DNA of 39,521 nt from an uncultured Bacilli bacterium (GTDB lineage Bacteria; Bacillota_I; Bacilli_A; RF39; UBA660). The stretch covers positions 1 through 39,521 of the forward strand of contig CALVIV010000009.1 in NCBI GenBank assembly GCA_944331935.1, read 5' to 3'. The position numbers and the translations under genes are program-made. The notes under the pieces were generated by a model that was not told the origin of the DNA, searched no databases, and saw nothing but the letters and a program-made list of their open reading frames with translations. This document shows, one piece after another, positions 101 to 11,272 of the stretch. Within the stretch, counting starts at the first letter, position 1. Each line of letters opens with the position of its first letter.

Positions 101-134
101 AAAATAATTCCTAGTTATGTTTAGGAATTATTTT
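101..134 (-). terminator. Intrinsic terminator of yigZ, stop codon inside the stem
   Basis: A perfect 13-bp stem (101-113 with 122-134) closes an 8-base loop. Read on the minus strand the 3' arm ends in TTTT. The TAG stop of yigZ (111-113) lies in the stem. Confidence 0.75.
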
Positions 135-692
135 TTCATTTACATAGTTAATTGTAACAAGGTTAGAAATACTATCTAATAGCTCTTTAGTAGTTTCTAT
201 TATATAAGTACAGTTTTCTTCATATAATTTGCTTTTTATAATACTATCTTTAAGTAAATAGTTAATCTCTTTTTCTTTAGAATAATTAAAAGTAATAGAA
301 GCTTCTATTCCTTTAATTAACTCTACTAGAGTAGATTTATTAATAACTTCTTTACAAGTATTAGAATAGGCTCTAATAAGACCACCTGGACCTAATTTAA
401 TACCTCCAAAGTATCTTATTACTACAACTAAGACATTTACTAAGTCATTACCTTCAATTACATTTAGAATAGGTATCCCTGCTGTTTTATTAGGCTCGCC
501 ATCATCACTAAAACCTTTATTATTGATTAGTTTAAAAGCATAACAGTAGTGAGTGGCATTCTTATATTCCTCTTTTAGTTTATTTATATTATCTTTAACA
601 TCATCTAAGAATTCTATAGGTACAATAACTCCTATAAATTTAGAGTTTTTAATAGTAGTTTCATATATTTCTTTAGTTAAAATACTCTTCAT
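111..692 (-). CDS. yigZ: YigZ/IMPACT family protein (UPF0029)
   Basis: 193 aa. The N-terminal part carries the family signature in order: SKFIG near residue 17, an A-T-H-Y-C-Y-A segment near 46, DDGEP-TAGIP near 63-74, and VVIRYFGGIKLGPGGLIRAY near 90-109. The C-terminal half is the usual ferredoxin-like DUF1949-type domain. Family members are small cytosolic proteins (E. coli YigZ, yeast IMPACT homologue) linked to translation stress; the exact role in bacteria is not settled. The start at 692 is preceded on the minus strand by AAAGGAAC. The gene is monocistronic, with its own promoter (717-745) and a terminator overlapping the stop. The length is slightly short for the family (about 200-215 aa). 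Confidence 0.93.
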   Translation of the reverse strand: MKSILTKEIYETTIKNSKFIGVIVPIEFLDDVKDNINKLKEEYKNATHYCYAFKLINNKGFSDDGEPNKTAGIPILNVIEGNDLVNVLVVVIRYFGGIKLGPGGLIRAYSNTCKEVINKSTLVELIKGIEASITFNYSKEKEINYLLKDSIIKSKLYEENCTYIIETTKELLDSISNLVTINYVNEKIIPKHN

Positions 693-853: not shown

Positions 854-2428
854 ATGAAAAAACGAGAAAATATAGTAATAATAATAGTGTTAGTAGTAAT
901 GATATTAGCAATAATAGGAGTAAGTTATGCTGCTTTTAATTATAGTGGATTAGGAAATAAAGTAAACACTATAACAACAGGAGCGATAAAGATGACTTAT
1001 ACTGAAGATGATAATATAATTAGTATGAGTGGAGCCCTACCAACAACAGATAAGACAGGAAAAGTAAGATTAAATCCTGGAGAGTATTTTGATTTTACAG
1101 TAAGTAGTGAGATTACAGGTAATGTCAATATCAATTATGAGATAAGTGCAAAAGATGTAACTACATCAGATAGAAAGATAGATGGTAAATATATTAAGTT
1201 ATATCTAACTAGATTAAAAGATGATGGAACAGAAGAAGAGTTAATGACACCAGAGACTTACAATGAAGAGAGTAGTGCTAATAACTTTACAGGAAGACCA
1301 GCAGGAGAGATGAGTTTATATACAAGTAGTATGAATAGTAGTGAATCTAATAGATATAGACTTAGGATGTATGTAACAGAAGAATATAATCCTCAAGGAG
1401 ATGGAGGAGGATTACAATTTAGTGTACAAGTTAATGTTTATGGTAAAGATGGAGAGAAGCCATTAACTGGTGCTGAGAATTTAGTGTCAAAAGCAAATCC
1501 AGATGATTTAGATTATAATACTGCAACACCTGAACAACAAAAAGAAATGTGGACTTTCACTCATCCAGAGACAGAACAAACAGAGGCCTTAACAGATTAT
1601 AGATATATAGGAGCAAATCCTAATAATTATGTACAGTTTAACAATGAATTATGGAGAATAATAGGAGTATTTACAGTAGATGATGGAACAGGAAATAAAG
1701 AAGAAAGACTTAAACTAATAAGAAATGATTCTATTGGTAATTACTCATGGGATAATAAACCTAGTGGAACAGGTTCATCTACTAGCTCTTATGGTAGTAA
1801 TGAATGGACTGATGCAAGAATTAATTACTTACTAAATGAAGGCCATGAAAGTGAGTCTGTTGGAGGTAGTCTATATTGGAATAGTGGTAGTGGCACTTGT
1901 TATAGTGGTTATAATAATGGAACAACTACCTGTGATTTTACATCTACAGGGTTAAAGGAAGAAGCTAAAAGTATGATAGGAGATACCTTATGGTACTTAG
2001 GAGGAGCAGTATCAACAGGTATAACAAGTTCTTGGTACTCAAACGAAAGGGGAACAACAGTATATAGTGGAAGAAGTACAAGTTGGACTGGAAAAGTAGG
2101 GTTAATGTATTCGAGTGATTATGGATATGCCACAAGTGGAGGAACAACAACTGATAGAAATACTTGTTTAAATAAAGAATTATATAATTGGGATTATTAT
2201 AGTGATTGTTATAATAATGACTGGATATTTAACTCAGCTAGTCAATGGACAATCACTCCCATCTCTTCTAGTTCTATCAGGGTGTTTTTTCTGGTTAGTC
2301 CGGGGGATCTGAATCATGCTTATACGAGCGATGCTAATTATGGGGTCCGCCCAGTTGTCTTTCTAAAATCTAATATCAAAATTGTTGACGGTGATGGAAG
2401 TAGTAGTGATCCGTATATCCTACAATGA
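854..2428 (+). CDS. Membrane-anchored/secreted surface protein with a putative variable C-terminal tip
   Basis: 524 aa. Residues 7-27 form a hydrophobic signal/anchor ending in VSYAAF, the style of SipW-dependent TasA/camelysin-like proteins. Residues 30-195 are a beta-rich extracellular domain (TTGAIKMTYT, an NPGEYFDF-type strand). From about 250 a second domain begins (YIGANPNNYVQFNNELWRII) that is rich in Gly, Ser, Trp and Tyr and has four paired-looking Cys (349, 360, 438, 452). It ends with a GVRPVVFLKS motif (497-506), which recalls the C-terminal core strand of FGE/C-type-lectin folds and of uncharacterised surface proteins of gut Firmicutes. The 3' end has clearly different codon use (separate entry). 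A function as adhesin or receptor is inference. The start is set by AAGGAG 10 bases before ATG 854. The TGA stop shows the code is standard. Confidence 0.8.
   Translation: MKKRENIVIIIVLVVMILAIIGVSYAAFNYSGLGNKVNTITTGAIKMTYTEDDNIISMSGALPTTDKTGKVRLNPGEYFDFTVSSEITGNVNINYEISAKDVTTSDRKIDGKYIKLYLTRLKDDGTEEELMTPETYNEESSANNFTGRPAGEMSLYTSSMNSSESNRYRLRMYVTEEYNPQGDGGGLQFSVQVNVYGKDGEKPLTGAENLVSKANPDDLDYNTATPEQQKEMWTFTHPETEQTEALTDYRYIGANPNNYVQFNNELWRIIGVFTVDDGTGNKEERLKLIRNDSIGNYSWDNKPSGTGSSTSSYGSNEWTDARINYLLNEGHESESVGGSLYWNSGSGTCYSGYNNGTTTCDFTSTGLKEEAKSMIGDTLWYLGGAVSTGITSSWYSNERGTTVYSGRSTSWTGKVGLMYSSDYGYATSGGTTTDRNTCLNKELYNWDYYSDCYNNDWIFNSASQWTITPISSSSIRVFFLVSPGDLNHAYTSDANYGVRPVVFLKSNIKIVDGDGSSSDPYILQ
2252..2350 (+). 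other. Codon-aberrant cassette at the 3' end of the surface protein gene (possible DGR-type variable region)
   Basis: These 33 consecutive codons (residues 467-499) contain no A-ending codon, although A-ending codons are very frequent in the rest of the gene. CTG, CCG, GGG, GTG, ACG and CGC appear, which are rare or absent upstream. In the middle most codons are NNT (TTT, GTT, AGT, GAT, AAT, CAT, GCT, TAT). The segment ends at GGGGTCCGCCC, coding GVRP. In diversity-generating retroelements the variable repeat lies exactly here, in the last part of a C-type-lectin-like gene, and adenine-specific mutagenesis of AAY codons gives NNY codons. No reverse transcriptase or template repeat is in this window, so this is a hypothesis; a recently imported or gene-converted cassette would look the same. 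Confidence 0.5.
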
Positions 2429-2448
2429 TAAATAAAGCGGTAGTAAAA

Positions 2449-2490
2449 CACGTCCCTAAAAGGCGAAGCCTTTTGGCCGTGCTTTTTTTG
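2449..2490 (+). terminator. Intrinsic terminator / GC-rich hairpin after the surface protein gene
   Basis: AAAAGGC (2458-2464) pairs with GCCTTTT (2468-2474) around a GAA loop. An outer CACG/CGTG pair extends the stem, and seven T follow at 2483-2489. It is about 20 bases after the stop and is unusually GC-rich for this window. Confidence 0.8.
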
Positions 2491-2591: not shown

Positions 2592-2615
2592 ATGTCATAT
2601 AAATGGAGGGATTAT

Positions 2616-3821
2616 ATGTTTCGTAAAAATAATAAAAGTGATGAATTAGATTATAAAGCTATTAATAGATTCTTTTATACTTCTAATAACTTACTAAAGT
2701 TTGTTCTTGCTTTAGTTATTATCCTTGCTGTACTTCTTGCAACTTACTTAATTAAAGAGTGGAATATACTTGGTATAATTGGTACTATTTTATCAGTTAT
2801 ATCTCCAGTCTTTATAGGGTTTGTTGTCGCTTGGTTACTTGACCCTCTTGCAACTAAGTTTTCTCATAAAATGCCTCGTGTTTTAGCATGTATTCTAACA
2901 TACTTAATTATCTTTGGAGGAATCATTTTAATACTTGTCTTAACAGTACCAACATTTTCTAGTGGTATTTCTGATATTGTTTCAGTTGTTCCTGATATAG
3001 TTGATAATGCTCAAGATTTTGCAAGTGATATGTTAGAGAAATTTGGTGATAGTAAACAAGTTGATAGTTATAAAGAAACTATGCTTAATAAGATAGAAAA
3101 TTTTGGTAGTGATATTGCAAGTAGTTTACCTAATACTATTTGGAACTTTGGTAGAGGTTTTGTTAGTGGAGCGACTAATATAATTTTAGGTATTATGATT
3201 GGCTTTTATCTATTATTTGATTTTCGTAAATTCCAGGGACACTTACTTAGTATTATGCCTAAAAGATGGCATAAGAATGCTAAAGACTTGATGAGACGTA
3301 TAAATGGTAAATTAAGAAGTTATGTTATGGGTGTTTTAGCAGTTATGGTATTAGTCTTTATTACCCAGTCTATTGGCTTTAGTTTGGCAGGACTTAGTGC
3401 TCCTTTCCTATTCGCTTTGTTCTGTGCCATAACTGATGTCATTCCATATATTGGTCCTTGGATTGGAGGTGCTCCTGCTGTTATTGTTGGTTTTACCATT
3501 GATCCAATGGTAGGAGTATTTTGTTTAGTTTCAGTAGTAGTTTGCCAGTTACTTGAGAATAATTTCTATCAGCCTCTAATTATGGGTAAAACTATGAAAT
3601 TACATCCTGTTACAATTATGCTTGGACTCTTGCTTTTTAATTATTTCTTTGGTATGATAGGAATGATAGTTGCAACACCTGTAATCGCTACTATTAAGAT
3701 AATTTTTGAATTTATTATGGAACATTCTGAATTGGGAGCGATGTTTAACAATTATCAAGAGAATAATAAGAAAACTGTGAAGGAACCAAGTACAAAAGAG
3801 CATCTTATCGAAGAGAGTTAA
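2616..3821 (+). CDS. AI-2E family transporter (PerM/UPF0118 permease)
   Basis: 401 aa integral membrane protein with about eight hydrophobic segments. The first pair lies near residues 25-75, a hydrophobic pair near 90-110, then a soluble loop of about 85 residues, then five more segments. The family hallmark is DVIPYIGPWIGGAP at about residues 270-285. Members include E. coli TqsA/PerM and the Na+/H+ or AI-2 exporters of Bacilli; the substrate cannot be told from sequence. An in-frame ATG exists at 2592, but the strong GGAGGG at 2605-2610 fits only ATG 2616. The last 40 bases of the gene double as the 5' arm of the alanine T-box leader (next entry). The C-terminus is a charged cytosolic tail. 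Confidence 0.9.
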   Translation: MFRKNNKSDELDYKAINRFFYTSNNLLKFVLALVIILAVLLATYLIKEWNILGIIGTILSVISPVFIGFVVAWLLDPLATKFSHKMPRVLACILTYLIIFGGIILILVLTVPTFSSGISDIVSVVPDIVDNAQDFASDMLEKFGDSKQVDSYKETMLNKIENFGSDIASSLPNTIWNFGRGFVSGATNIILGIMIGFYLLFDFRKFQGHLLSIMPKRWHKNAKDLMRRINGKLRSYVMGVLAVMVLVFITQSIGFSLAGLSAPFLFALFCAITDVIPYIGPWIGGAPAVIVGFTIDPMVGVFCLVSVVVCQLLENNFYQPLIMGKTMKLHPVTIMLGLLLFNYFFGMIGMIVATPVIATIKIIFEFIMEHSELGAMFNNYQENNKKTVKEPSTKEHLIEES

Positions 3822-10070: not shown

Positions 10071-11272
10071 TGTTTTTCTAAGTATAAATAAATCTCTTTT
10101 AATTTATGTTCATAGCCTAAATCTTTAGGATGATAATATTTCTTATTCTTTAATTTATCAGGTAAGTATTGTTGTTTAACAAAAGCATTTTTATAATCAT
10201 GAGGATATTTATAAGTATCACTTGGATTCTTTAAGTGTTTAGGGATATCACCTACATTACCTTTTTCTATATCACTTAAAGCTTCATCTAAAGCGATATG
10301 GGCAGTATTACTTTTAGGAGATAGAGCCATTTCTGTAACAATAGTACCTAGTGGAATTCTTGCTTCCGGTAATCCTACTAACTTAGCGGCATCAATCGCT
10401 GCCATTACTTTAGGACCAATAGAGGGGTTAGCAAGACCTATATCTTCATAGGCGATAACAGACATACGTCTAAAGATACTATCTAAATCTCCTATTTCAA
10501 TTAATCTTGCTAAATAGTGTAGTGAAGCATCAACATCACTTCCTCTAATAGATTTTTGAAAAGCCGATAACATATCATAGTAACCATCACCATTTTTATC
10601 AGCATTAAATACGGGTTTACTATTAATCTTTTTAACAACATCTATATCTACTTTAAAATCATTAGTAGAGTAGTAAGATATCTCTAAAAGGTTATAAGCA
10701 TATCTTAAATCATTACCTGAAGCCCTTGCAATATAATCAATAGCTTTGCCTTCTATCTTTATATTAGGTAAATAAGGACTACTAACCGCTTTCTTTAACC
10801 CTTCAACAATATCACTTGTCTCTAAGTCTTTAAGTTCAAACAACTGACACCTTGATCTAATAGCAGGATTAATAGCATGATACGGATTACTTGTAGTCAT
10901 ACCTATTAAAGTAATAAGACCGCTTTCTAAACAAGGCAGCAAGATATCTTGTTTATCTTTATTAAGTCTATGTATTTCATCCATAACTAGAACAATACCA
11001 TCATACATTTTCGCTTCTTCTATAACGATATCTAAATCTTTCTTAGAATTAACTGTAGCATTTAAAAATCTATGTCTAACTCCTAAGTCATTAATAATAG
11101 CATTGGCAATAGAAGTTTTACCTATACCAGGTTTACCATATAAAATCATGGAAAATAACTTCTTGTTCTTAACTAAATTACTAAGAATCATATTGTCTCC
11201 CACTAAATGTTTTTGTCCTATTACTTCTTTTAGGGAAGTAGGGGCAAGTTTTAAAGCTAGAGGTTTATCCAT
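10058..11272 (-). CDS. rarA: Replication-associated recombination protein A (AAA+ ATPase)
   Basis: 404 aa. The RarA/MgsA/WRNIP1 family acts at stalled forks together with SSB. Visible motifs: LAPTSLKEVIGQKHLVG at the N-terminus, Walker A GKPGIGKTS near residues 47-55, Walker B VLVMDEIHRLNKDKQD near 93-108, sensor 1 TTSNP near 127-131, and SRCQLFELK near 140. The C-terminal tetramerisation part has AYEDIGLANPSIG and the HDYKNAFVKQQYLPD signature. A GTG at 11281 opens the same frame but lies inside the ribosome binding sequence GAAAGTGAT, so ATG at 11272 is chosen. It is divergent from the gene at 11365, with its own promoter, and ends in the hairpin shared with the gene before it. Slightly short for the family (about 420-450 aa), with no missing motif. 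Confidence 0.95.
   Translation of the reverse strand: MDKPLALKLAPTSLKEVIGQKHLVGDNMILSNLVKNKKLFSMILYGKPGIGKTSIANAIINDLGVRHRFLNATVNSKKDLDIVIEEAKMYDGIVLVMDEIHRLNKDKQDILLPCLESGLITLIGMTTSNPYHAINPAIRSRCQLFELKDLETSDIVEGLKKAVSSPYLPNIKIEGKAIDYIARASGNDLRYAYNLLEISYYSTNDFKVDIDVVKKINSKPVFNADKNGDGYYDMLSAFQKSIRGSDVDASLHYLARLIEIGDLDSIFRRMSVIAYEDIGLANPSIGPKVMAAIDAAKLVGLPEARIPLGTIVTEMALSPKSNTAHIALDEALSDIEKGNVGDIPKHLKNPSDTYKYPHDYKNAFVKQQYLPDKLKNKKYYHPKDLGYEHKLKEIYLYLEKQKKS

Follow-up and report, generated by a model that had tools for sequence, protein, structure and literature searches.

Target genes of diversity-generating retroelements (DGRs) that stand apart from their template and reverse transcriptase (RT), as orphans or served in trans, are already known elsewhere. 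Orphan and remote targets of the TvpA type occur in Treponema denticola (PMC4891356), and the DGR network of Thiohalocapsa PB-PSB1 comprises nine loci of four classes with 15 targets, some of which are probably served in trans (PMC10907252). RTs of the DGR clade share the motif (I/V/L)GxxxSQ (PMC3521204), and in phage-type DGRs a hairpin/cruciform with a GRNA loop sits 4–34 bp behind the variable repeat (VR) (PMC3240598). Such hairpins are described for phage-type DGRs as 'a subset' (PMC3521204), and were therefore not taken here as defining for all DGRs. A contig-based DGR survey states that its own approach misses targets remote from the template and RT (PMC8144416); a codon anomaly in the raw sequence can expose a target of this kind, with its template and RT elsewhere.

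We analysed a stretch of 39,521 nucleotides from an uncultured Bacilli bacterium (assembly GCA_944331935.1, contig CALVIV010000009.1; hereafter the window), in which one gene ends in a codon-aberrant segment (Table 1). A preliminary description of the window had proposed this gene as a remote DGR target, and the proposal is upheld by template repeats in sister species, the adenine bias of the differences from them, a full cassette behind the orthologous target in two species, and a C-type-lectin-like fold of the encoded protein. The segment is very probably the VR of a DGR target gene, rewritten from a template by an RT and Avd.

Table 1. Position of the window gene, its parts and its neighbours in the window
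Feature	Position	Strand	Remarks
UPF0029 gene	111..692	−	neighbour of the window gene
Probable DGR target gene (window gene)	854..2428	+	524 aa; N-terminal hydrophobic helix, β-rich N domain (~residues 38–200), C-terminal lectin-like domain
Predicted C-type-lectin-like domain (residues 229–524)	1538..2425	+	AlphaFold2 model, structural matches
Probable variable repeat (VR)	2255..2354	+	full-length homology to sister-species template repeats; changes biased to adenines
Adenine-poor VR 3′ end, GGGGTCCGCCCAG	2342..2354	+	same sequence in the templates of G008 and G038
Conserved C-terminal tail following the VR, VVFLKSNIKIVDGDGSSSDPYILQ	2355..2428	+	shared with orthologues
Intrinsic terminator-like hairpin with T-run	2449..2483	+	contains the hairpin 2458–2474
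AI-2E-type transporter gene	2592..3821		neighbour of the window gene

Codon anomaly and terminator of the window gene

A run of 33 codons without a single A-ending codon extends over 2252–2350, with codon 467 (2252) as its first; of the 466 codons before it, 44% end in A. Such a run is expected by chance with a probability of ~6e-9, and did not arise once when the codons of the window gene were shuffled 20,000 times, which bears out the run first noted in the preliminary description; the unusual words listed there are likewise present in the segment. Codons ending in C or T account for 76% within the run, as compared with 46% upstream in the gene, and the GC content is 0.42 at 2251–2400 versus ~0.31 across the gene. 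This local rise in GC would also suit a recently acquired gene end bearing chance or foreign-DNA codon usage without any diversification, but that explanation is extremely improbable in view of the rarity of the run, the orthologues that keep the frame, a similar length and the tail while their VRs differ at the same codons, and the templates found in sister species.

By analogy with known DGRs, an RT together with Avd would copy a short template RNA with misincorporation at the template adenines, and the mutated cDNA would replace the VR of the target gene. AAY codons of the template would in this way become NNY codons, leaving an A-free run of codons ending in C or T, and the changes would land on fixed residues in the last strands of the C-type-lectin-like domain. 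From known DGRs we infer mutagenic reverse transcription, homing, service in trans, lectin display and a binding role for this locus, and GGGGTCCGCCCAG is likely an IMH-like homing end, its role being assigned on the same grounds.

The VR ends 74 nt before the end of the gene. The hairpin 2458–2474, with a 7-bp stem, a 3-nt loop and a T-run behind, forms the core of the terminator-like structure, and lies ~100 bp past the end of the template homology (2354). It is the sole local inverted repeat downstream; no hairpin of the phage type was found 4–34 bp behind the VR, and the same terminator hairpin also occurs downstream of orthologous targets in other species. The hairpin reported in the preliminary description thus exists, but its reading as a hairpin of the DGR type does not hold, and a homing role was rejected in favour of an ordinary terminator.

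Templates and cassettes in sister species

The GGGGTCCGCCCAG pattern also occurs in four sister species within the genus, and the aligned VRs have NNY codons at the same places. A template was guessed by rewriting the variable NNY codons as AAY, and the genus was searched for it with up to three mismatches. The guessed template was found in three sister species (G008, G015 and G011), and a looser pattern led to a fourth, G038; the templates of this type have the core TCTAACAATGTGTTTAATCTGAA and the 3′ end GGGGTCCGCCCAG. In G008 and G011, the orthologous target with its VR is followed in order by the terminator, a 127-aa ORF, an Avd-like protein, a 360-aa RT and the template. The cassette RT carries the motifs PIGNMTSQF and YMDD, and matches phrog_1423 'Reverse transcriptase' (E 8e-69), while the Avd of G008 matches phrog_3206 'Avd protein of DGR' (E 1e-16). 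Both (I/V/L)GxxxSQ and YxDD, by which membership of the DGR clade was judged, are present in the sister-cassette RT and in an RT encoded on contig C78 of the genome under study, and relatives of the cassette RT occur in 31 of the 35 genomes of the genus. The 127-aa ORF has a match to MutS domain I (PF01624) that passes the Pfam cut-off (E 5e-6); it lies at L093 9175–9558 (minus strand), occurs also in L097 and L142, and resembles a stand-alone mismatch-recognition accessory protein.

Comparison of the window VR with these templates revealed a consistent bias. Where the three sister templates agree, the only positions counted, 16 of the 30 adenines but 7 of the 57 other positions are changed (Fisher p 7e-5). 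The bias is also seen against single templates, with 17/33 adenines versus 10/67 others for that of G008 (p 1.8e-4), and 20/36 versus 9/62 for that of G038 (p 2.7e-5). From the known templates the window VR has 7–10 non-adenine differences, more than would be expected had it just been copied from any of them; either the true template is another, so far unobserved variant, or some ordinary mutations have accumulated. Two other VRs of this type differ from the template of another species almost exclusively at adenines: the VR of G015:C4 departs from the G008 template at 17/33 adenines and 2/67 others, and that of G008 from the G015 template at 14/34 adenines and 1/63 others. Against the template of its own cassette, the G008 VR differs at 15/32 adenines and 7/56 others, over 88 nt only. 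The G008 VR thus fits the G015 template better than its own, and the G015:C4 VR fits the G008 template; VRs and templates of the window type are often discordant in this way, the template of another species fitting better than the adjacent one.

A hybrid template is found in G011 (L097 11875–11968), of which the first half is of the window type and the second half is nearer, in its end and following sequence, to a template type present on contig C20 of the genome under study; this suggests recombination between DGR templates.

Machinery, paralogues and template arrays

The genome carrying the window contains five RVT_1 matches, including two RTs in DGR-like settings (contigs C1 and C78). On C1, a bAvd protein (PF22296, E 2.5e-22) is followed by an RT with the motif LPIGNYTSQF, and five template-like repeats lie upstream. 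Within its YMDD codons, this RT (L069 4846–8207) is split by a group II intron that encodes an RT/maturase of its own; uninterrupted versions of the C1-type RT occur in sister species. C78 encodes an Avd-like protein (phrog_3206, E 3e-7; PF22296 below the cut-off) and an RT with LPIGNYTSQF and YMDD. On C20, a target is followed after ~100 bp by a template of a second type, and no RT is close by; both the terminal VR (11/24 adenines, 0/56 others) and the internal VR (13/24 adenines, 0/56 others) of this target differ from the template at adenines alone, and several more genes match the same template with differences mostly at adenines. Targets with two VRs, internal and terminal, of one template type are found at C20 L044 962–1950 and at C5 L053 13687 and 14359.

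In this assembly (92% complete, 83 contigs), a search for window-type templates that allowed up to 3 mismatches to the template core gave no hit, nor was an RT of exactly the window type found. Of the template repeat and the DGR-clade RT for which the preliminary description had suggested a search of the genome, the former is seen in G008, G015, G011 and G038, with the 7–10 non-adenine differences given above, and the latter is represented by the two DGR RTs of other types on C1 and C78. A scan of viral contigs for the VR end gave no copy, and the phage records held no relative of the window protein, so that nothing points to an origin from a phage.

A protein search of the genome with the window protein returned 68 matches, several of them at contig ends. 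About 12 further copies share 75–91% of the N-terminal part, while their C-terminal segments diverge strongly, the divergence falling just upstream of the conserved sequence 'G(I/V)RPS(L/M)NLKS'; in related genes a variable segment lies at the end, followed by 'SFRLV'. In the less decayed copies the variable stretches are again poor in A-ending codons, and the family looked like DGR targets. Searching the genome with the GGGGTCCGCCCAG pattern yielded one other carrier, a paralogue on contig C3, and an adenine-tolerant scan of selected stretches of the genome returned the C3 paralogue only. Compared with the G015 template, the VR of this paralogue is changed at 17/34 adenines and 0/63 others (p 6e-10). 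Contig C3 stops ~100 bp behind this target; sister species carry the cassette from there.

Such a large family, with N domains 75–91% alike and variable C termini, would be a suitable substrate for cassette switching by homologous recombination among paralogues or silent cassettes, without reverse transcription. This route is nevertheless very improbable as the source of the variation, since recombination alone would not pick adenines, and adenine-focused differences are seen in several independent pairs; moreover, the search of the genome gave no copy of the segment besides that of the C3 paralogue, and both the genus and the genome itself contain DGR RTs, Avd and templates. Gene conversion between cassettes, the other option in the preliminary description, is not required to explain the data, and apart from that on C3 a second copy of the segment was not found in the genome. 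As a sole mechanism, gene conversion was rejected on the ground that the differences select adenines.

With the segment taken as a DGR VR, it can be asked how its gene is served. Since neither a template nor an RT of the window type is present in the 92%-complete assembly, the window gene may be a remote or orphan target; the cassette may also have been missed by the assembly, as C3 ends where sister species carry it. The target, standing alone, would then be rewritten in trans, or its last rewriting would date back to a time before the cassette was lost or escaped assembly. It is an appreciable possibility, somewhat below an even chance, that the gene is a frozen former target, diversified by a DGR in the past and left to ordinary evolution of its VR once the cassette was lost, which competes with the gene being still served and not with its being a DGR target. 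The missing RT and template and the 7–10 non-adenine differences are consistent with a frozen state, as are an orthologue with a decayed, AT-rich VR (L107, 74% identical) and the orphan targets in T. denticola strains lacking the core cassette (PMC4891356). On the other hand, the codon usage of the window VR has not drifted back (0/33 A-ending codons), the C3 paralogue fits a known template at 63/63 non-adenine positions, and C3 breaks off just ahead of the cassette site.

A neighbouring DGR type, the type-I system, adjoins rpsL-rpsG-fusA and has its templates in arrays, with five in the genome under study, ~5 in G038 and ~20 in G010, spaced at ~1 per 350 bp with a conserved element after each. 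The G010 array (contig C20; L174, L179) lies between one target gene and the bAvd-RT pair, and the VR of the target matches the array member at 10231 at all non-adenine positions. The best array member differs from the type-I target VR at 5/27 adenines and 0 others in G010, 17/29 and 0 in G038, and 7/26 and 1 in the genome under study. The type-I target thus fits one member of its own array, a different one in each of the three species. This pattern suggests that the template in use varies over time, but later gain, loss or alteration of templates may also account for it. In all three species, a template-like copy that is rich in T, poor in adenine and has the same ends is located between the target and the array (L058 569–667, corresponding to C1 30068–30166; L176 ~3879; L179 ~3492).

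Considering the different array member used in each species together with the better fit of window-type VRs to templates of other species, we tentatively place the window gene, at a confidence just short of even, in a surface repertoire run by several DGRs with interchangeable templates, in which template choice and adenine mutation would be combined. If active, the arrays would unite two usually separate routes of surface-protein variation, namely cassette choice and mutation. DGRs with two or six templates have been reported, and no comparable array is described in that work (PMC6642488). Our coverage of the literature is incomplete and novelty is thus unproven, but this neighbouring type, with arrays of up to ~20 templates, is more novel than the orphan or trans-served targets.

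Predicted fold and comparison with known systems

No named domain was detected in the window protein with Pfam and NCBIfam. The last 296 residues were modelled by AlphaFold2 with an alignment of 33 sequences (pLDDT, 92.8; pTM, 0.92). The closest solved relative and best structural match is the lectin-like N-terminal domain (CTLD) of the IgA peptidase from the gut bacterium Thomasclavelia ramosa (PDB ID, 9qa6; Z-score, 18.5; rmsd, 3.1 over 213 residues; identity, 20%; aligned with VIA-align), which has been reported as C-type-lectin-like (PMC12237041). Weaker matches (Z ~3–6) include Legionella Lcl, many C-type lectins, BPP-1 Mtd (Z 4.3) and formylglycine-generating enzyme (FGE), and on their own would be in the range of common arrangements. 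The VR corresponds to residues 240–273 of the model, in the last strands of the domain. A model of the N-terminal domain had lower confidence (pLDDT, 77), and a Foldseek search with it returned no convincing match; a TasA-like nature is a guess.

The N-terminal helix most likely anchors or secretes the protein, and the lectin domain would face outward as a changeable binding surface. The label 'adhesin' given previously denotes a putative binding function, deduced from the fold and the signal sequence. A cluster on C1 (73500–80500, L057) hints at the export route of the targets: besides a SipW-like signal peptidase, it encodes four small proteins that have the N-terminal domain of the targets, at 34–39% identity. 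By means of a DGR, a gut bacterium could in this manner change the tip of one of its lectin-like surface proteins, and the findings point to a small-genome lineage of gut Bacilli with DGR-type RTs in most genomes, rewriting a family of such proteins.

Unlike the IgA peptidase of T. ramosa, where the lectin-like domain belongs to a peptidase, the window protein showed no recognisable peptidase domain. The prototype DGR of phage BPP-1 (PMC3240598) shares with the present system a 3′ VR in a gene with the C-type-lectin fold (Mtd), an RT, Avd and adenine-specific change; the window gene differs in being chromosomal, with no recognisable prophage and no GRNA-loop hairpin 4–34 bp behind the VR, and the sister-species cassette in having the additional MutS_I-like ORF. 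The Thiohalocapsa PB-PSB1 network is similar in having several DGR classes per genome, incomplete loci, and VRs that match a distant template at all non-adenine sites, but its targets are conflict-system proteins, whereas those described here form a secreted or anchored lectin-like family in a 1.5-Mb genome. The T. denticola DGR likewise has paralogous surface targets off the core cassette, targets in strains without RT or template, and a 3′ VR of the C-type-lectin type; it belongs to another phylum, whereas the genus studied here contains several lineages of RT and several types of template, and its targets carry a different N-terminal domain.
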